A stretch of 64,000 nt of DNA from Pollenia angustigena (Eukaryota > Arthropoda > Insecta > Diptera > Polleniidae): assembly GCA_930367215.1 (NCBI GenBank), contig OV884056.1, forward strand, positions 41,106,308 to 41,170,307, read 5' to 3'. How positions within the stretch are numbered: the stretch's first letter is position 1; each line of letters begins with the position of its first letter. This document shows positions 6,773-56,673 of this stretch, piece after piece. The notes beneath the pieces are model-generated. The model was not told the origin of the DNA and did no database searches. It was given only the letters and a program-made list of their open reading frames with translations. The position numbers and the translations under genes are program-made.

Positions 6773-8081
6773 CACAGAAAAAATTATTGGCAGTTTTTTT
6801 TTTCAATTAGTAGTGATTTTTAAATTTTAAAATAAATTTGATTACGTTCTTAATTGATTGAATTAAAAAAAAATATAAGTAAAATAAATTTTACTTGATT
6901 TTAAGCTTAATTTTAATTATAAGTTTAATTGAAACAATCAACTCGGTTGTTTGAATTGAACACTTTATTGCTTTCCTCCCTCATCAACAGTATGCGAAAA
7001 ATATTACAAGTGCAACCAACATCTTTATAAATTTATTGTCTTTGCCCTTACATGTACATACACACAAACACACGTGTTTTTGTCATCAAAAAGAACAGTA
7101 AGCGTCGCGTGCAAAAAAAAATCAACAAGTAAAAAATGAACTGAGACTTGTTATAGACTAATTACAATTATGACCACCACCAATGTCAATAATAAGCCTA
7201 CATACATATGTATATTATGCGTAAAATAAAAAATCGCCTTGTGGCTGACCACATTGTTGACGGTGGTTATGGTCGCAATCGAAATTTGGTGTTTATTTTC
7301 TTTGTTTGTTAATTCTTGAATTATTTTTGGCGTCATTTCATGTTGTGAGTTTAAATTGAATAGGTGAAAAAAAGTACAGACAAATTACACAACAAAAACT
7401 GTTTTTTATTTTCCATCTTGAAAACCCTGAAGTTGTTCTACAATTTTATACAAATTTGTATTTATGAAATTCCTTTGTCAAAGAAATCTTCCAAAATGTG
7501 TACAATTAAGCATGAGCTATTAAAATTAAACAAATAAAACAAGTTATTTTAAAACCATATTTAAATAAAACATATATTTTAAATATTATAATTTTGCTTC
7601 ATTTAACCATCAACTGAATGGATTTAATAAACTTATTCAATTAACAATTTGTTTGATTGAAAAATTTGCGTAATTGAATTTAGATTGTATTTCAAATACA
7701 CTGTTTAATTTATTCAATTAAAAATTTAATCGATTTAATGCAAAAATTCAATCACTGTTTTAATCAATACAATTAATAAAATAATTAATTTTCTGTTTTG
7801 TAATCAATTACGTTAGTAATTCATTCAATTAAAATATTGATTTTTTTTAAATTAATTTGTTTATTCATTTAATTAAAATATTGTTTAATATTAATAATTT
7901 TTTCAATTATTTTTGTAATTAAAATGTTTAAACTTTTTAATTGGAAAAAGATCCTTGTTTTGCAATTTTTGCAAATTTGAGTAATTGGTATAATCATTTC
8001 GGTGATAGGTGCAAAATTAAACAATTTTTTACTTGTTTTAATTATTTTGGTGATCAAAAACTTTTTTTACTTTTTTCTGTG
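6773..8081. mobile_element. MITE, TIR CACAGAAAAAATTA, second nested copy
   Basis: Left end TA then CACAGAAAAAATTATT; right end ACTTTTTTCTGTG then TT. The interior is an AT-rich run of AATTAAA/TTTAATT motifs with no coding capacity. It shares termini, and part of its interior, with 13372-13862. Confidence 0.6.
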
Positions 8082-16019: not shown

Positions 16020-18247
16020 TACATTTGTTTACTTTAAAGGATTTAGTTGGTTATCGAGGCAGATTGCTTTGCGCAAAACAATCAAGTAGAGTCAATAGGA
16101 ATGCGTATTGACATAAGAGGATGTAACTACCCTATGATTGTTTGTTGCTTCTCTGCTTCAATTTTATTTGTTCACGAAGCCTTCTAAATATATAAAAATA
16201 CTCATTATCAGATTGCGTTTAAAATCAAAATATTCCTAAATTCAAAAGTATTTCCACAAAAATTTTACTTTTTGTCACGTCACACCACCAAGTATATAAA
16301 ATTTTTTCTCAAAGAATAATTTATATATTATTGATTTTTTTTTTTTTTTTTTTTTGTATTTTGGTGTAAAGCGCAATTAAGTGAAAGAAAGGAAAACATG
16401 GTTCTTAAGTACAAAATAAATTGCTTATTGCCGTTATGTGACAATTCTGTGAAAATGTCCATATGCAATAGTAAAACTTTGGATTTTAAATTGTTCAAGT
16501 CTTCTTTACAACAACCTGAGAAAAAAAAGTAAAAGCTTTTCTTAATAATAAAGTTATAGACCATTTAAATTCCTTTATTTCTATTGGACCAGCCTGTACT
16601 ATTCAATTCGGGTCAAATAACCCTTTTTCCCAAAGCGGTATAAAGTCGCACTTTGTGCTCTTGCAATATTTTACTTTTTTTAAATAATTTGTCTAGTCTT
16701 GCCTTTTTTAAAGTTCCAATAATTTGCACACCCTGTATGCTAATTCGTGTGGATATCGTTTTACATATTGTAATTCAAATTGGTGTCCTTATTCATTTAT
16801 TTGTGTGTTACAATGAATTTATAAGAATGTATGTAAAGTTGCTTATGTATCTGTTACTTAACTTTCTTTTATCTATAAAGATAGAGATTCTTATAAGAAT
16901 CTTGAACACGCGTCGTCAAGTTGACATTTTGTTTTTTTTTTTTGATTATTTTTGTAGTTGTCACATTTACACATACAAAAACAAAAAAAAAAAAAGCCGA
17001 AATTTAAAAGCACATACATACTTATTCAAACAACAAGCGAATAAACGAACGGATTTAACTTGATTATAAAATTGTGAGTGTGTTAATGTTGTATATAAGC
17101 ATGTGTGCATATTCCTGTTGATCCAATTTTTCTTTTTTTTTATGTCTTTGTTTGTTTGTTTGTATGTATTACAAAGTGTATGGTTTGATTGATATATTAA
17201 ATGTTGAAATGTCTTTATAGTTAAGATCGTATACATAAGTCTGTATGAATATGTCTGGATTTGTGAATCCGTTGGTTCGAAAATACGTTTGCATGTGGTA
17301 TAAAAAAAAAAAAAAAATAAAATGAAGAAAGATAAAAGATAAAAACAAGCATTAATACATTCTCAACAATAAAATAGGGCATATAAATTTCACACTGATT
17401 TAGTACCATGTTTAAGTGTTAAAAAAAAAGATTTTAGTTTGAGTAAAGAAGATGTTTGAAGCTTTAACACATTTATAAATGAAAAGCAAAATTTTGACAA
17501 ATTAGTCTTATAAAGAAGATTTTTCTTCTCCATTTTAAATTGTGTTTTTGTCAAAGGATTCTTTTTTCTTTTCTGTTGATTTGCTCAAATATCTACTGTT
17601 TTTTTTTCGCTATGACAGATTTTAAAAAATAACGAAAAGATTTGACAAATTTATTAAGAGGCATAATTTATTTTCAAATGCATTGAATTGCAAAAATAAT
17701 AGGATTGCTTTACAAAATGTTGCCAAAATTTATTTGTTAAAACAGTGGGGGGTTACAATTATTAAAATTTACCCTTAAACGTTTAAGAATATATTTAAGG
17801 TTTGAAGTGTTTTTGCATATCTTAAGTTCTATTTGGATCTAAGACAAAATTGTTTTTTAGTGATTTAAACTCTTTCTGCTAATAACAATTTCAGATGCCA
17901 AATTTTGCTGTGCTACAAACAATTCTGAGCAAATTGTGCGAGCTTAAAGGCTTTTTTGGAAATAAGACCAATATGGGGCCTAAATAGAGAGACTGTCTTT
18001 CTAAACTTCTGTGTTTAAATCAAGCAATTATACTTTACAACACTGCAAATCAGAAGCATTCTATGAATGATATTTTTGTCAAGCTAATAGTGACCAAATT
18101 TCTTCAATGTTAATTAAATTAAATTTTTAATTACAATATTTTGTTTCCGACGTTTCGACGATTGTTTCTCGACTTTTTTAATGGATTGTCTTTTTAAAAA
18201 TTATAAAACAATGAAATACTTACAATAATGTTACACATAAAAAATAC
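16020..18247. other. No supported gene
   Basis: Contains poly-T and poly-A runs (about 16333-16355, 16981-16995, 17301-17320) and no recognisable protein. The 136-residue frame at 16653-17063 is low-complexity, hydrophobic and AT-driven. GACCAATATGGGGCC near 17967 hints at a fragment of repeat B. Confidence 0.4.
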
Positions 18248-29773: not shown

Positions 29774-29910
29774 GGCCTGTTTGTCGATAGCGAATGAAGA
29801 CTTCGTTCGCATAACTTACATGTAAAACAAAAACAATATTTTATAATTTGTTTTTGTTTTAAATGTAATTTATGCGAACGAAGTCTTCATTCGCTATCGA
29901 CGAACAGGCC
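29774..29910. repeat. Near-perfect 137-bp palindrome
   Basis: GGCCTGTTTGTCGATAGCG and AATGAAGACTTCGTTCGCAT on the left are mirrored on the right by ATGCGAACGAAGTCTTCATT and CGCTATCGACGAACAGGCC, with three or four mismatches in about 66 bp per arm. The core (ACTTACATGTAAAACAAAAA) matches the palindrome at 25413-25537. Confidence 0.88.
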
Positions 29911-30342
29911 TTTAAAAACATACATTAGTAATTGCATTTTGTAAGTGCCATAAATAGGTAATACAGTTTTAAAAAAGTCGGTGTATAATGATAGAGGTTT
30001 TTTTAATTCAGAACTTTTCTTATGTCCATATAAAATGGCTTTGAACTAGTGCATTATAAATTAATAATTTCTTTTTTTTTTATTAAATTTTTTCTTTAAT
30101 TTGTATAAAAAACCAACAGCCTGGGCTGTTTTAGTCTTCAGACTATGGATATGTTGACTCCAAGCAAGATTGCTCTGCAGTTGTAAACCTAAGTACTTAA
30201 AAGAACTGACTTCCATGATTTCTTTTCCATCTACAAAAACACTAAAGTTGTTACGATCCTAATATGACTTTAATCTCATCAATCGAGTTTTGTTAGCATT
30301 TAAGAAAATTTATTTATTCTCATAATGGCTGCGAGTGTAAGA

Positions 30343-30403
30343 CGGCAAATCCATCTGAGGAGATCGAGTGGTTGCGATCGAAACATGTCATGGTAACCTG
30401 CCG
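30343..30403 (+). ncRNA. Type I hammerhead ribozyme, copy 1
   Basis: Order of parts: CGGC (30343-30346), CCAT (30351-30354), core CTGAGGA (30355-30361), stem II GATCG/CGATC (30362-30366 and 30375-30379) with loop AGTGGTTG, core GAAA (30380-30383), two-pair stem III (AC/GT with loop AT), cleavage triplet GTC (30387-30389), then ATGG (30390-30393) pairing with CCAT and GCCG (30400-30403) pairing with CGGC. Every invariant core position (C3 U4 G5 A6 G8 A9, G12 A13 A14, A15.1-U16.1, C17) is present. Predicted cleavage is after C30389. Confidence 0.85.
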
Positions 30404-30409
30404 GCCGGG

Positions 30410-30428
30410 GTTCGAGCCCCAGCCACGT
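30410..30428 (+). promoter_or_regulatory. tRNA-like T-arm / Pol III B box in the ribozyme element
   Basis: GGTTCGAGCCC sits inside GGGGTTCGAGCCCC, a perfect T-arm hairpin, and recurs at about 30979-30991 and 34332-34346. A box-like GAGTGGTT overlaps the loop of stem II about 45 bp upstream, a spacing possible for a Ser/Leu-type tRNA promoter. Whether RNA polymerase III uses it is inference. Confidence 0.5.
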
Positions 30429-30916
30429 CAAGAATGAAAGATTATCAATAACAATTTTAATTGATTTTCAAGTTTGTAAAATTCCTTTCTCCATCAAAAT
30501 AATTTAATGAAAATAAAATTTGATGAACTTAAGCCTAATTATAAAAATTTGGATTAAAAACCATAAATAGTTCAACAAAATAACCACAATACTGATTATT
30601 GTATAAGCTAAGGCACGAGCTCTATGTATTAATTTGTCCTTCAAGTTGTGCTGAAAAAGGTCAACAGAAAAAAGAACGACAAAAATTAAAAAACAAAACA
30701 AATGTACTTTCGACTTCAAGAAGAATTCTTGACAAAAGTACAAGAAAACAGAAGTAAAGGAAAAAGAAAAAAAAAACACGTAAAATCAATTAAAAATGGA
30801 TAATCATTCAGAAAAAAAAGCAAATGTCGATCGACCAAAGGTTAAAATACAATTTGGTTTAAGGATTGATGTTTGACTATTGCCGTCAGCGGTCGTCGAT
30901 GGCTGCGAGTGTAAGA

Positions 30917-30977
30917 CGGCAAATCCATCTGAGGAGATCGAGTGGTTGCGATCGAAACATGTCATGTTAACCTGCCG
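30917..30977 (+). ncRNA. Type I hammerhead ribozyme, copy 2
   Basis: Same architecture as the copy 574 bp upstream: CTGAGGA (30929-30935), stem II GATCG/CGATC, GAAA (30954-30957), GTC (30961-30963). Stem I has one change (ATGT in place of ATGG), which weakens its fourth pair. Predicted cleavage after 30963 would release a 574-nt monomer between the two ribozymes. Confidence 0.83.
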
Positions 30978-31299
30978 GGGTTCGAGCCCCAGCCACGTCA
31001 AGAATGAAAGATTATCAATAACAATTTTAATTGATTTCCATGTTTGTAAAATTCCTTTCTTCATAAAAATAATTTAATGAAAATTAAATTTGATGAATTT
31101 AAGCCTAATTATAAAAATTTGGATTAATTCTCATAAACTCTGATATTAATGCCGCATCTCGCTCAATATGAACTTTAGCTACCGTTTCATGCTTGTAAGC
31201 GTAAAATAAACTGATGTCGTCTGCATATATAAACATTTTGCCAGTAAGTTCAAGATTTTTCAAGTCATTAAAATAAATAATAAACAATAAAGTACGACT

Positions 31300-31406
31300 A
31301 AAACCGTAATAAATAATGCTACTGTAATAAAATTTCGTACATCAAAGTCTTATAGGACTAGAAATTACACTTACAAATTTGTGAAGATCGGTCCATAATT
31401 TACCAT
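31300..31406 (+). repeat. Repeat B interior, left half of LINE target
   Basis: GCTACTGTAATAAAATTTCG and GATCGGTCCATAATTTACCA match the interior of repeat B (14280-14360, reversed). A second direct copy of the internal block is at 33050-33145. The LINE at 31407-32986 inserted here; TTTACCAT at 31399-31406 is one copy of its target duplication. Confidence 0.55.
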
Positions 31407-32986
31407 TTTTTTTTTTTTTTCCTTTACTTATTCCTCGAGGGAACATAGGGATTCAACAAGATATTTCTAACTTAATCTATTGTTCGCAATTATTTTTGCC
31501 TCTTCCCATGATTTATTGATGTCCGCAAGTTCTCTCCTTACAGACCTACGCCAGGGATTTTTGGGTCGACCTCTTTGTCCGCTTCCATGTGGATTCCATT
31601 CAAGTGCCATCCTGGTTACATTATGTACTGGCTTTCTTAAGGTGTGTCCTATCCATTTCCACTTTCTGCGTTTTATCTGTATGTGTATAGGCTCTTCTTT
31701 GGCTAAACTCCAGAGGTTTTCATTTGTTATTGTGTTTGGCCAGTATATACCACATATAATCCGAAGGCTTTTATTTATAAAAATTTGTTACCGCTGCCTG
31801 ATCGATTCATTAGCCAGCCATGTTTCACTCCCGTATAAAACAGTCGACTTGACACAAGCGTTGAAAATGCGGATCTTTGTTGTTCTCGTGATTTGTAGTG
31901 CTCGTCATATATTTTTTAGTCTTCCAAATTCACTCCTTGCTTTATTGAGCATATTGGAAATGTCCTCATTAATGCCACCGCTTGTAGACATTCTGCTCCC
32001 TAAGTAGCAGAAGCAGTCAACGTATTCTATTCGGTGGTTATTGATGGTGATATGACCGTTGCTTCTATTATGTAGACGCATGGCTTACGTCTTTTTTATA
32101 TTTATTTCCAAGCCAACTTTTCTGGCTAACTTCACAAGATCGTTTGTCTTATCTTGCATGTCCGAAAGTTTGTGTGAAAGAAGGCAAATATCATCTGCAT
32201 ATTCTAAATCCTCCAGATGTCTTTGAAAACTCCACACAATACCTCTTTTCTTCTTGCACAGTTCCTCCATAAAACAGTCCATTACCATTGCAAAGAGTAG
32301 TGGCGATAGAGGGCAGCCCTGTCGTACTCCCATGTTGGTCGTGAACGGATCGCTTGCTGTCCCGTTGTGTAGAACCTGCAGTTCCGCGTTGGTGTACATA
32401 GCTTTGATGACTTGTATTATTTTGTTTGGCACTGCTTTCTTTTTTAGAGCTAGCCATATAGCGTTTCTATTGACTGCATCGAACGCTTTTTTAAAGTCAA
32501 CGAATAGCAGATACAGAGGCGACTTCCATTCGATCGACTGTTCAATAATTATTCGAAGTGTATTAGCCTGATCGAAGCAGCTACGATGTGGACGAAACCC
32601 AGCCTGTTCGTCTCTAAGTCCAGCCTCTACAGTTTCCAACCTTTTAAGTATTATTGTGGCTAGTACCTTGTATATTGTATTGAGCAACGTGATACCCCTC
32701 CAGTTGTCACAATCTCTGAGGTTATCTTTTTTGGGTAATTTTACTTCATTACCTCTAGTCCACGAACAATTTATGGTTTCTGTTCTCCAAGCTTGTGCAA
32801 TATGCGGTTGTATGATGTTAGCTGCAATTTCAGTGTCTATTAAGAAGAGTTCTGGTGGAACTCCATCTGCACCGCAAGCTTTGTTGCGTTTAAGTTTGCT
32901 TATTGCAGTTGCTGTCTCTGTGATAGTAGGCGGGTCACATGCGATTGTTCTGTTTTGTTCTTGTGCGGTACAGGGTAGTCCGAGTG
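31407..32986 (-). mobile_element. 5'-truncated LINE with poly(A) and 8-bp target duplication
   Basis: TTTACCAT occurs at 31399-31406 and again at 32987-32994. Inside the left copy is a T run (31407-31420), the poly(A) tail of a minus-strand LINE. The host repeat B reads continuously if the 1,580 bp are removed. These three features define a target-primed LINE insertion, 5'-truncated within the RT fingers. Confidence 0.82.
31428..32980 (-). pseudogene. LINE ORF2 (RT and C-terminal domain), inactivated by point stops
   Basis: Fingers: KLPKKDNLRDCDNWRGITLL (split between frames near 32700). The intact 200-residue stretch 32085-32687 has DEQAGFRPHRSCFDQ, motif A LLFVDFKKAFDAV, GVRQGCPLSPLLF and LEYADDICLLSH. 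Downstream, after a stop at 32085, the sequence continues YVDCFCYLGSRMS, LYGSETWLANES, RKWKWIGHTLRKP, RGRPKNPWRRS and ends SLCSLEE-stop at 31428. About three or four single-base stops are present. It is a different LINE lineage from the jockey-like pieces; I cannot assign the clade firmly. Confidence 0.85.
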
Positions 32987-33344
32987 TTTACCATAGGCTA
33001 CATATAAAGGCTTCACTCGGTAAAATGTTTAGTACACCTTAGCCCGTAACAAATGATGCTACTGTAATAAAATTTTGTACGTCACAGTTCTAAAGGACGA
33101 GCAAATATACTGTAAAATTTCGTGAAGGTCGCTCCATAATTTACCATACTCTCATACAATGCCCACTCTGGGAAGTTATTTAAATACGCCTCAAGCCGTA
33201 GCAGATATTGATATTCTGCCAAATATAGCACTCCTACTTATTTAATGAAATTTGATTTCTGATAAGTTTACAAAATTTTTTATTAATTTCGCCATGCGCT
33301 GGATATTACATACTACTAGGAAGCAGCCGAAAAGCGAATACCAT
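32987..33344 (+). repeat. Repeat B interior, right half, and spacer
   Basis: CCATAGGCTACATATAAAGG, TTTAGTACACCTTAGCCCG, GCTACTGTAATAAAATTTTG and GCTCCATAATTTACCATA continue repeat B interior blocks. 33150-33344 is unassigned. Confidence 0.5.
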
Positions 33345-33808
33345 CCCAGTAAAAAAAATTTGTTTATTTTGAAGCTCTACAGAGAAAAAGCGCATAATCA
33401 AGCGCTTCAATTAGAGAGCTGTTATAAAGCAGTGAATGACAAAAAATAAAACATACAAAAAAGCTGATATTTTAGTGCGGACAAGGAAGAAGGGTTTAAA
33501 GCGACAAAAATAAAAATATATTATGGTTTACGAAAATGATTGAAAAATGGCATTTAAGCCAGGGACCGTAACAGTTATGCCTTTTTTCATAAAAGTCAGA
33601 TGAAAACAGTTATTTTTTGATTTTATTTTTTTGAACAAAAAGAACAGTTATTTTTTGATTTTTATTTTTTTGAGCAAAAATAACTGTTATTTTTTTATTT
33701 TTATTTTTTCGATCAAAAATAACAGTTAATTTTTGATTTTTATTTTTTCGAGCAAAAATAAAAGTGATTCTCTAAATAAATGTACGTGTTTTAATAATTT
33801 AGATTAAT

Positions 33809-34528
33809 AATAACAATTTTAATTAATTTTCATGTTGTAAAATTCCTTTCTTCACAAAAATAATTTAATAAAAATTAAATTTCATGAACTTAAGCCTAAT
33901 TAAAAATATTAAAAAATTTGGATTAAAAACCATAAATAGTTCAACAAAATAACCACAATACTAATTATTGTTAAAGCTAAGGCACGAGCTCTATGTGTAC
34001 ATTTGTCCTTCAAGTTGTGCTGAGAAAGGTCAACAGAAAAGAGAAAGACAAAGTGAAAAAACAAAAAATGTACTTGGACTTCAAGAAAAATTCTTGACGA
34101 AAGTACGAAAAAACAGAAGTAAAGGAAAAAAGCATGTAAAATCAATTAAAATGGATAATCATTCAGGAAAGCAAATTTCGATCTACCAAATGTTAAAATA
34201 CAATTTGGTTTAAGGATTGATGTTTGACTAGTGACGTCAGCAGTCGTCGATGGCTGCGAGTGTAAGACGGCAAATCCATCTGAGGAGATCGAGTGGTTGC
34301 GATCGAAACATGTCATGGTAACCTGCCGGCCAGGGTTCGAGCCCGAGCCACGTCAAGAATGAAAGATTATCAATAACAATTTTAATTAATTTTCATGTTG
34401 TAAAATTCCTTTCTTCACAAAAATAATTTAATAAAAATTAAATTTCATGAACTTAAGCCTAATTAAAAATATTAAAAAATTTGGATTAAAAACCATAAAT
34501 AGTTCAACAAAATAACCACAATACTAAT
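33809..34528 (+). mobile_element. Retrozyme-like insertion 2, 1.25 units, different phase
   Basis: Flanked by a 14-bp duplication TAATTTAGATTAAT (33795-33808 and 34529-34542) inside the foldback element. It begins in the tail (AATAACAATTTTAATT), runs through the interior, then the ribozyme and B-box region (34251-34350), the tail again and the first bases of the interior again (ACCATAAATAGTTCAACAAA). Its start and end points therefore differ from those of the copy at 30326-31126: the two insertions are circular permutations of one unit. Confidence 0.75.
34268..34328 (+). ncRNA. Type I hammerhead ribozyme, copy 3
   Basis: CGGC (34268-34271), CCAT, CTGAGGA (34280-34286), GATCG/CGATC around loop AGTGGTTG, GAAA (34305-34308), GTC (34312-34314), ATGG and GCCG (34325-34328). 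The core and all stems are identical to copy 1. Predicted cleavage after C34314. Confidence 0.85.
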
Positions 34529-35220
34529 TAATTTAGATTAATTTAATAATTATTTTAATGTGCATAAAGAATTCAAATGATAATTACACACTAAAATAAA
34601 AATTAAAAGTCAACTAAATTATTAAATAACGTACATTTATTTAGAGAATAACTTTTATTTTTTCTCGAAAAAATAAAAATCAAAAAATAACTGTTATTTT
34701 TGTTCAAAAAAAAAAATCAAAAAATAACTGTTATTTTTGATCGAAAAAATAAAAATCAAAAAATAACAGTTATTTTTGTTCAAAATAATAAAAATCAACA
34801 AATAACTGTTAAGTTTGATGTAAAATATAAAAATCAAAATTATAAAAATCAATATATTTTATCATTGACAAGTGCATGAGGAACAATATGGGATACTTGA
34901 ATCTGTTTTTCGACATTTAATTCTATATGCTTTTTTTTGTTTTAAAATTCCAATATAACTGTTATTTTCGGTCCCTGATTTAAACAAGTAAAAGCAAAAC
35001 ATTAATGAATATGTTAATATAGTTAGCCCTTAAAAAAGCACTTTAGGAGCGCTTTGTTTGCATGTTAAAAGAAGCGCTTATTGTCAGCAGAAAATAGTCC
35101 TCCAAACCGGGAACACCCCATACAAAAATCAGGCATCCCATCAGCAGGTTTAAAGCGCTTTGAGGTATGTATGAATTCATACAAAAAACCTGCTCCTTTT
35201 GGAGCACATTTTTTACTGGG

Positions 35221-49925: not shown

Positions 49926-50682
49926 AACAAGGTGACAAAAAGTTGTTACCCGGTGTTCTTGCACGGTTATTTCTTTAATGTCCAATTTCAATCATGAGAT
50001 GATAACGAACTTTTTATGGCCCGAATTGGAAGGTATGGATGTGGACGATATTTGGTTTCAACAGGACGGTACCACTTGCCACACAGCTAGCGAAACAATA
50101 TTTCATTTTTGCGACAAATTCAATGGCCGTGTTATCTCACGTGGTGGTGATGTCAATTGGCCGCCAAGATTATGTGAGTTGACACCGTTGGACTTCTTTC
50201 TTTGTGGTTTTTTGAAAGAAAAGGTGTACGTGGATAAGCCAGCAACAATTCAAGAGCTTAAGGATGAGATAATTCGGCACATTAACGGCATAGAACCTCA
50301 ATTGTGCCTCAGCGTCATCGACAATTTGGACCATCGGATGGAGGTGTGCTGCCGAGGTTGCGGCAGCCATTTGGCCTATATCTTGTTCCATCCATAGTTG
50401 AACCATATCAATATTAACATAATAAAAACAAATGACAATAATTTTTTAAATAATTTGTGTCTTATTCAAAATCAACATCGGCCCTTAAAATTTAGTATCA
50501 GTAAATGAAAAACTTTAGTTTTGCCTTGGATTGTGTTTATTTGATGTCTAAAAAGTCCATTTCTTATTCACGTGTATTTTATATCTGTTAACTTCACAAA
50601 TGTTAAAGCAAAACTGGCATTTACCACCTTTGCAAGAATTATAGCATCTTCCTATTTGTGATGGCTTTTGCGCCACCTTGTA
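49926..50682 (+). mobile_element. DD41D mariner-type element, internally deleted
   Basis: TA at 49924-49925 and 50683-50684 flank AACAAGGTGACAAAAAG at the left and, as reverse complement of the right end, TACAAGGTGGCGCAAAAG. It contains the C-terminal transposase half. The N-terminal DNA-binding half and first catalytic aspartate are deleted. Confidence 0.72.
49978..50397 (+). CDS. DD41D mariner-type transposase, C-terminal half
   Basis: 139 residues. NFNHEMITNFLWPELE leads into DIWFQQDGTTCHTA, whose D is the second catalytic acid. WPPRLCELTPLDFFLCG carries the third. Exactly 41 residues separate the two aspartates, which defines the DD41D branch of the IS630-Tc1-mariner superfamily. The usual terminal region (YVDKPATIQELKDEI, CCRGCGSHLAYILFH) is intact to a proper stop. 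The first aspartate and the helix-turn-helix domain are missing, so the protein is not active by itself; the ATG at 49978 is not the native start. Confidence 0.85.
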   Translation: MSNFNHEMITNFLWPELEGMDVDDIWFQQDGTTCHTASETIFHFCDKFNGRVISRGGDVNWPPRLCELTPLDFFLCGFLKEKVYVDKPATIQELKDEIIRHINGIEPQLCLSVIDNLDHRMEVCCRGCGSHLAYILFHP

Positions 50683-55795: not shown

Positions 55796-56673
55796 ATGGG
55801 TAAGTTTTTAGCTATTATCTTTTTGGCAACACTGGTTTAAACAGCTGGTGCACGTTTCGTGTTTTGTTTCACTGTCAAAAATCTTCAGTTTGGTCTATAA
55901 TTTAACCATGAATCGTCTTACAAACGAACAACGGTTGCAAATTATTGAATTTTATTATCAAAGTGCGTGCTCTGTTAAGAAAGTTCATCGCGCGCTTCTT
56001 CCATTTTATGGTCAGTTTAATCGAACCACTGAAGCGACTATTCGGGCTATTGTGACTAAATTTCGCACCAAATTTACATTGTTGGACATTAAACCACCAA
56101 CACGCTTACGTAGAATGCGAAGTGCAGAAAATATCGCAGCTGTATCGGCCAGTGTTATTGATGACCATCAATTATCGATTTGTCGCCGTTCGCAGCAATT
56201 GGGCCTCTGTTACTCAACAACGTGAGATGAAATCCAACTTTTTTTTGCCCAAAATGCAAGAGCTTGACTTGCATGAAATGTGGTTTCAACAAGATGGTGC
56301 CCCATGCCACACAGCACGCTTAACAATGGACTTATTGAGAGGCGAGTTCGGTGAACATTTTATTTCACGTTTGTGACCGGTCAATTGGCCGCCTAGATCG
56401 TGCGATTTAACGCCTTTACACTATTTTTTGTAGGGCTATGATAAAGCTCATGTCTATACACAAATGCCCGCTTCAATTGACGCATTGGAAAACAACATTA
56501 ATATAAGCGGATAGACCATTTGAGGCGCAGTCACGGTCAACATTTGCATGAAATAATCCTCAAACATTAAATTATATGGACCGTACTATCGATTCAAATA
56601 AAGATTTCATGCATTTTTCTGAATTTTATGTGTTTTTTTTTAACTTTCCTATAGCTCTTAAAAAATCACCCAT
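55796..56673 (+). mobile_element. DD41D mariner-type element, second family
   Basis: TA at 55794-55795 and 56674-56675 flank ATGGGTAAGTTTTTAGC at the left and ATGGGTGATTTTTTAAG as reverse complement of the right. The TIR differs from the element at 49926, so this is another DD41D lineage. 878 bp: shorter than a full element because of an internal deletion. Confidence 0.75.
55907..56580 (+). pseudogene. DD41D transposase, internally deleted and mutated
   Basis: The N-terminal domain is intact from MNRLTNEQRLQIIEFYYQ (ATG at 55907) through TEATIRAIVTKFRTKF and SICRRSQQLGLCYST, a typical two-helix-turn-helix paired-like region. The frame then jumps by a deletion that removes the first catalytic D. 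A second frame gives EMWFQQDGAPCHTA (second D), SCDLTPLHYFL and AHVYTQMPASIDALE. The spacing between D and the third catalytic position is again 41, but that residue is H and stops precede and follow it. Inactive. Confidence 0.85.

Follow-up and report, generated by a model that had tools for sequence, protein, structure and literature searches.

Retrozyme-like repeats have already been reported from insects in general (PMC7229834) and hammerhead repeats from the mosquito Aedes, for which a dimeric form of the ribozyme has been proposed (PMC3088659). Which enzyme moves the animal retrozymes is undecided in the literature: Penelope-like elements are a strong candidate in the account of PMC7229834, the repeats carry no motif that reveals the mobiliser according to PMC7761336, and in 2024 both long interspersed nuclear elements (LINEs) and Penelope-like elements were still being named (PMC11722881). 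The element described here lies in a 64,000-nucleotide stretch of the genome of the fly Pollenia angustigena (contig OV884056.1, positions 41,106,308 to 41,170,307; ‘the window’), which holds two insertions of a hammerhead-bearing repeat. The family carries the marks of Penelope, and these point to a possible machinery.

A Penelope protein from a lizard cuts both strands of the DNA and extends each of them, with a preference for AT-rich DNA; it starts reverse transcription at two neighbouring sites within the RNA, and what lies between these sites is the known tail (PMC11167929). Rotifer Penelope copies show head-to-head inverted pseudo-long terminal repeats (pLTRs), one of which may bear a 31-bp tail, together with duplications of 8-10 bp, and self-priming has been proposed for them (PMC3846280).

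The fly family is probably a metazoan retrozyme without long terminal repeats (a non-LTR retrozyme), its hammerhead-cut RNA being circled and then moved by a Penelope-like enzyme. What can be read from the genome is a ribozyme fold with covarying helices, insertions with preferred 3' ends and head-to-head arms, a single template per insertion and a resident Penelope-like family with two end sites; from these we infer self-cleavage, the circle and a Penelope-like enzyme at work.

The hammerhead and its helices

The motifs in the window (Table 1) run in the order CTGAGGA, stem II GATCG/CGATC with an 8-nt loop, GAAA, stem III, GTC and stem I, and so have the core CTGANGA/GAAA/UH, the three stems and the open stem I of a type I hammerhead. 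Stem III consists of two pairs (A-T and C-G) and a two-nucleotide loop, its sequence ACATGT being palindromic. The preliminary description, made from the letters alone, placed three hammerheads here and all three are in place; copy 2, however, closes stem I with ATGT, not the ATGG given there, and has 4 nt missing near the outer stem. A full-motif scan with a 4-bp stem I finds two motifs in the window (copy 2 fails), the chance level being one in 100 dinucleotide shuffles of the window over both strands. The Hammerhead_1 model of Rfam aligns to copy 1 in the same layout as first described. A model made for the family gives 76 matches over the 40 sources searched, having been trained on sequences from the very loci searched. 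In fold, the three are real hammerheads, and they would be expected to cleave themselves.

The core and stem II pattern CTGAGGAGATCGN{6,10}CGATCGAAA occurs 17,249 times (8671 + 8578) in the 1.37-Gb genome, in which the reversed control pattern has no match. The family is abundant, with thousands of copies, some of them young; the exact ribozyme pattern is absent from a viral contig set and from a bacterial/archaeal one. Counted over the genome, the stem II pair is C-G at 17,249 sites (loops of 6-10 nt allowed), T-A at 7,828, C.A at 92 and T.G, a wobble pair, at 84. Since the paired states are common and the intermediates changed on one side are rare, this appears to be compensatory change in an RNA helix; the T-A switch could be one amplified event, and a few intermediates are common to neighbouring units.

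An alignment of units from the fetched loci (132 rows) shows further helix columns. In stem I, pair 28/66 is AT in 59 rows, CG in 9, AG in 1 and gapped in 1, and pair 27/67 is CG in 67, TA in 2 and CA in 1; in stem II, pair 40/51 is CG in 70, TA in 1 and CA in 1. The covariation score is reached by none of 500 shuffles and is lost when the structure is slid; it was computed on 21 of the 23 distinct variants, one with a stem I gap and one with the last outer pair broken being left out. A two-sided change in outer stem I listed by the covariation count was set aside, the same row being aligned as A.C, and stem III shows no covariation in the unit alignment or the variants. The covariation of stems I and II, with the target-site duplications and uniform-unit arrays described below, upholds the proposal that a dispersed, noncoding, retrozyme-like element carries a type I hammerhead.

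When the anchors are fixed and any core is allowed between them there are 15,179 sites, of which 386 have a change at the free position N7 and 67 one at G5; CTGAGGA stands in 92 of the 100 first listed. The copies being related by descent, this contrast is indicative. Under a strict rule (one-unit spacing or opposite arms) a change is common to neighbours in 15 of the first-listed 100 N7 sites and in 2 of the 67 G5 sites (Fisher p 0.017), whereas with all neighbours within 1300 bp the counts are 15/100 and 8/67 and do not clearly differ. A distance of 1120-1125 bp separates the additional G5 pairs: such dead-core variants recur at a distance of two units (C1:328574929, C2:173780098 and C6:1853220), as if arrays also grow by two-unit duplication. 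A long array is seen at C1:1092534-1099286, where at least 13 units with the T-A form of stem II follow one another in one direction about 567 bp apart. The low variation of the core columns (0.002) is not used as evidence because the loci had been picked by that core. Natural-variant genetics of a ribozyme within one genome is made possible by a family of this size.

Head-to-head insertions with two preferred ends

Insertions were measured at 33 loci of C1 (0.18-5.14 and 10.5-12.4 Mb), drawn from the first 100 pattern matches, and in the window. From 41 elements 36 were kept; three shorter than 250 bp, one with arms below 80% identity and one cut by the locus end were dropped before ends were counted, and L020 and L034 are counted among the 36 elements and absent from the 55 ends. 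There are 21 divergent (head-to-head) two-arm elements, 13 with one arm and 2 that are irregular. Arms reach 4.7 units of about 561 nt, the commonest unit length in the genome. The first 100 matches include 11 pairs of opposite-strand neighbours no more than 1300 bp apart, all 11 in the order minus then plus; the any-core list has one plus-then-minus pair (C1:12686000 and 12686437). Duplications of at least 10 bp flank 16 of the 36 elements, compared with 2.0% of mismatched flank pairs, and the flanks are 77.9% AT vs 69.9% for the loci.

In two-arm elements both outer ends are 3' ends, and these gather at two places. Unit 266-292 (the tail site) holds 26 of 55 outer ends and 3 of 55 inner ends, and unit 218-241 (the short site) 16 and 1 respectively. 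Exactly one outer end falls at unit 266-292 in 19 of the 21 two-arm elements, where about half would be expected were both ends independent (p 9e-5); its partner lies at unit 183-263 in 15 of the 19 and at 133, 153, 369 or 468 in the other four. L024 and L032 are two-arm elements with no end at 266-292.

Twin priming by a LINE on the RNA likewise yields divergent arms, and LINE reverse transcriptase frames are present in the window, so that a LINE-moved retrozyme has to be considered. Inversions in LINEs are not known to be as frequent as the 21 in 36 seen here. Moreover, such a scheme does not lead one to expect a preferred place for the second end too, or internal start sites on a template that runs through them, and we consider it unlikely.

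The double arms could instead arise without priming from two strands, if the cDNA primed itself or snapped back, the route put forward for Penelope elements of rotifers (PMC3846280). This predicts head-to-head copies of one template, and the junctions of the 21 double arms, which range from -12 to +34 nt of overlap or gap, lie within 5 nt in 16 cases. It leaves the second preferred outer end at unit 218-241 unpredicted, and is improbable.

One template for each insertion

Median divergence is 0.63% for units within an arm (61 pairs, maximum 9.2%) and 0.52% for units of one element that lie in opposite arms (57 pairs, maximum 12.5%), compared with 3.52% for units of different elements (5,148 pairs). 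Within clusters, 18 of 21 pairs have the same unit spacing, vs 60 of 540 between clusters. Rounded to the reference unit, itself taken from L011, the arms of that locus (2.96 and 2.30 units) are 100% alike, and at C1:152699327-152701678 one rare core variant is present in all five listed units, over both arms. Judged by these likenesses there is one template per insertion. Since arms exceed one unit they cannot derive from linear cut monomers; a circular template would explain them, and an uncut multimer from a uniform array could do so too.

Thus a Penelope-like enzyme might copy an uncut multimeric transcript of an older array, the ribozyme being a passenger or trimming RNA elsewhere. Uncut RNA is the main substrate of the lizard protein in vitro (PMC11167929), and inner ends form no cluster around the cut (unit 60-70 has 1 of 55), which fits a circle equally well. 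The uniform unit length and the near identity of all units and of both arms speak for the circle, however, and from the covariation and the scarcity of changes at G5 the ribozyme is of importance. Copying of an uncut multimer is unlikely.

Links with Penelope-like elements

The retrozyme copies match the hallmarks of Penelope in their head-to-head inverted copies, their two adjacent preferred end places, the tail at one of the two 3' ends and the AT-rich target. GIY-YIG frames are present in the genome, with at least 19 matches among the 150 of 493 candidates that were scored; the best may be a host nuclease. The frames of L042 and L044 match GIY-YIG; a frame of L043 reaches 24.7 bits for RVT_1, below the cut-off of 29.6. 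Most of the 48 relatives of the L042 frame have RVT_1 or PF26215 and one has GIY-YIG; those named come from flies (Haematobia, Rhagoletis, Eurosta, Calliphora, Stomoxys, Episyrphus and Musca) and one beetle.

Seven copies of a resident Penelope-like family, read by eye, have two end sites 42 nt apart. The short end is found in L042, L045 (a few nucleotides shorter), L047, L050 and the copy in L048/L051/L052, and the long end in L044 and L046; L043 and L049 represent other families. All seven carry a minimal hammerhead of their own, or its place. Where it was read in L042, L044-L047 and L050, this hammerhead follows the frame; its stem III contains the palindrome ACGT, and a T is left unpaired at the base of stem II. 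The retrozyme family model has no match in L042-L044 or L046. A two-arm retrozyme with ends at unit 280 and 230 is inserted in the Penelope-like copy of L048, the empty site being given by L044 with a 7-bp overlap. The Penelope-like copy at C1:202300863 was considered as owner of the retrozyme hammerhead and rejected, a retrozyme being inserted into that copy. By their double arms and two preferred 3' end sites the retrozyme insertions carry the Penelope signature.

The steps would then be as follows. A type I hammerhead with minimal stem III would cut multimeric transcripts into units of about 561 nt, which a host RNA ligase would close into circles. A Penelope-like reverse transcriptase with a GIY-YIG endonuclease would nick both strands of an AT-rich target, and both nicked ends would prime. 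Copying would begin inside the RNA at two adjacent places, unit ~218-241 and ~276-287, as a rule one for each target strand, and would go round the circle, often more than once, leaving head-to-head tandem arms between target-site duplications. We lean towards the specific form of this scheme in which one ribozyme-made circle serves each insertion and the enzyme primes both nicked strands, each at a different one of the adjacent sites, giving a head-to-head rolling-circle double array. If true, this names the mobiliser of animal retrozymes and makes the insertions a genomic record of two-sided priming on circular RNA. With thousands of insertions and mapped ends, a single protein and a single RNA would suffice for an in vitro test of the mobiliser.

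Transcription

The family might also be a tRNA-derived short interspersed nuclear element (SINE) whose likeness to a hammerhead is due to chance. The ribozyme lies between a weak A-box-like start and a B-box-like GGTTCGAGCCC that is perfect, and ARAGORN, with introns allowed and an 80% threshold, gives a tRNA-like gene at unit -7 to 105. At its default setting, however, ARAGORN finds no tRNA; the relaxed runs also give unrelated hits, the first TTTT comes about 36 nt past the B box, and the B box is no less variable than the unit (3.7% vs 3.1%). Stems I and II covary, and multi-unit permuted arms are not known as a SINE trait. This origin is extremely improbable. A polymerase III promoter as the source of multimers was considered and is not established, given the weak A box and the early TTTT; retrozymes seem to lack promoters in the account of PMC7761336.

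Evidence that weighs against the proposed Penelope-moved circle

Several results count against the preferred reading, that of a hammerhead-made circle moved by a Penelope-like enzyme. The preliminary description proposed a covariance search, and this fell short of threshold. Rfam at its gathering threshold has no match in the whole window, the seven matches in 29800-35000 with E up to 10 include no hammerhead, and Hammerhead_1 scores copy 1 in a 78-nt search at 15.3 bits (cut-off 34, E 0.21). That model expects a longer stem III. The lone ribozyme favours an alternative fold (-17.3 vs -12.0 kcal/mol), and the fold predicted for the 561-nt circle gives stems I and II near the core a probability of about 0.01, so that the ribozyme would be hidden there; such hiding is reported for plant retrozymes, not for most animal ones, in the account of PMC7229834. 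A few dead-core or mismatched variants are common to neighbouring units, and 20 of the 36 elements have no duplication of 10 bp or more. For lizard Penelope the start sites were not seen to differ between the strands, unlike the one-per-site rule here, and in vitro its insertion did without the ribozyme and used mainly uncut RNA (PMC11167929). Likeness between the retrozyme tail and that of one Penelope-like family is equalled in 36 of 1000 and 225 of 2000 shuffles, and homology is not convincing.

The insertions in the window and their surroundings

Table 1. Parts of the two retrozyme insertions, in window coordinates
Feature	Position	Strand	Remarks
Left target-site duplication ATTCTCATAA, element 1	30316..30325	.	
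Element 1: one-arm retrozyme insertion, 1.4 units (unit 574 nt)	30326..31126	+	3' end at short site, unit 238
A-box-like start TGGCTGCGAGTG, element 1	from 30326		weak
Hammerhead copy 1	30343..30403	+	predicted cut after 30389; family model 96.2 bits
B-box-like GGTTCGAGCCC, adjoining ribozyme copy 1	30409..30419	+	
Hammerhead copy 2	30917..30977	+	predicted cut after 30963; one stem I mismatch; family model 90.8 bits
Right target-site duplication ATTCTCATAA, element 1	31127..31136	.	
Left target-site duplication TAATTTAGATTAAT, element 2	33795..33808	.	
Element 2: one-arm retrozyme insertion, 1.3 units (unit 563 nt)	~33809..34528	+	limits uncertain by few bases
Hammerhead copy 3	34268..34328	+	predicted cut after 34314; family model 96.2 bits
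Right target-site duplication TAATTTAGATTAAT, element 2	34529..34542	.	

Element 2 is circularly permuted with respect to element 1, and its 3' end is at the tail site, unit 279. It is flanked (33574-34842) by inverted arms of 137 nt, 88% complementary and with an internal period of 39 bp, the retrozyme having inserted between the arms of another repeat. The 574-nt circle first predicted from element 1 would be of that element's own unit length, the commonest unit in the genome being 561 nt. Cleavage as a dimer, also put forward in the preliminary description, is compatible with the palindromic stem III, whose ACATGT could pair with itself in a dimer.

Elsewhere in the window, LINE-like reverse transcriptase frames lie on the minus strand at 32085-32987, between the two retrozyme elements, and at 957-2114 (RVT_1, 123.6 and 65.2 bits). 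A hairpin at 29774-29910 has 63-nt arms, 95% complementary and 11 nt apart, with weak, sub-threshold matches to miRNA families. The frame at 55812-56225 has a DUF4817 helix-turn-helix, and that at 49936-50397 is mariner-like by eye, with no Pfam match.

Comparison with known systems

Hammerheads of type III have been described from other dipteran genomes, those of house fly, fruit fly and soldier fly (PMC7936874); unlike these, the Pollenia ribozyme has stem I as its open stem. The SINE-like SM-alpha elements of Schistosoma (PMC8490949) and the Aedes repeats (PMC3088659) are, like the fly family, described as dispersed repeats with type I hammerheads. Penelope-like elements have minimal hammerheads reported to cleave as dimers (Lunse et al.), and the fly ribozyme shares their very short palindromic stem III; it differs in its additional outer stem I and internal loop. 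With Penelope-like elements themselves (PMC11167929, PMC3846280) the family shares a minimal type I hammerhead, partial tandems, a head-to-head inverted part, a tail at one end and AT-rich targets; it differs in having no open reading frame and in its multi-unit arms from a 561-nt template.

Screened by title and abstract opening, the open-access literature yielded no head-to-head retrozymes and no Penelope start sites in retrozymes that we recognised, most subscription literature lying outside that scope. The metazoan non-LTR retrozymes, as PMC7229834 presents them, are likewise noncoding and low in GC, have a type I hammerhead and duplications of more than 4 bp, and consist of tandem units without LTRs. 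Their units are of about 170-400 nt, compared with about 561 nt in the fly; circles from 150 to over 1000 nt are allowed in the same account, so unit size is taken as descriptive, not defining. The head-to-head double arms, the two end sites and a ribozyme predicted to be hidden in the circle set the fly family apart from the retrozymes described there. We therefore file it as a metazoan non-LTR retrozyme that is larger than the described ones and has a new insertion architecture.

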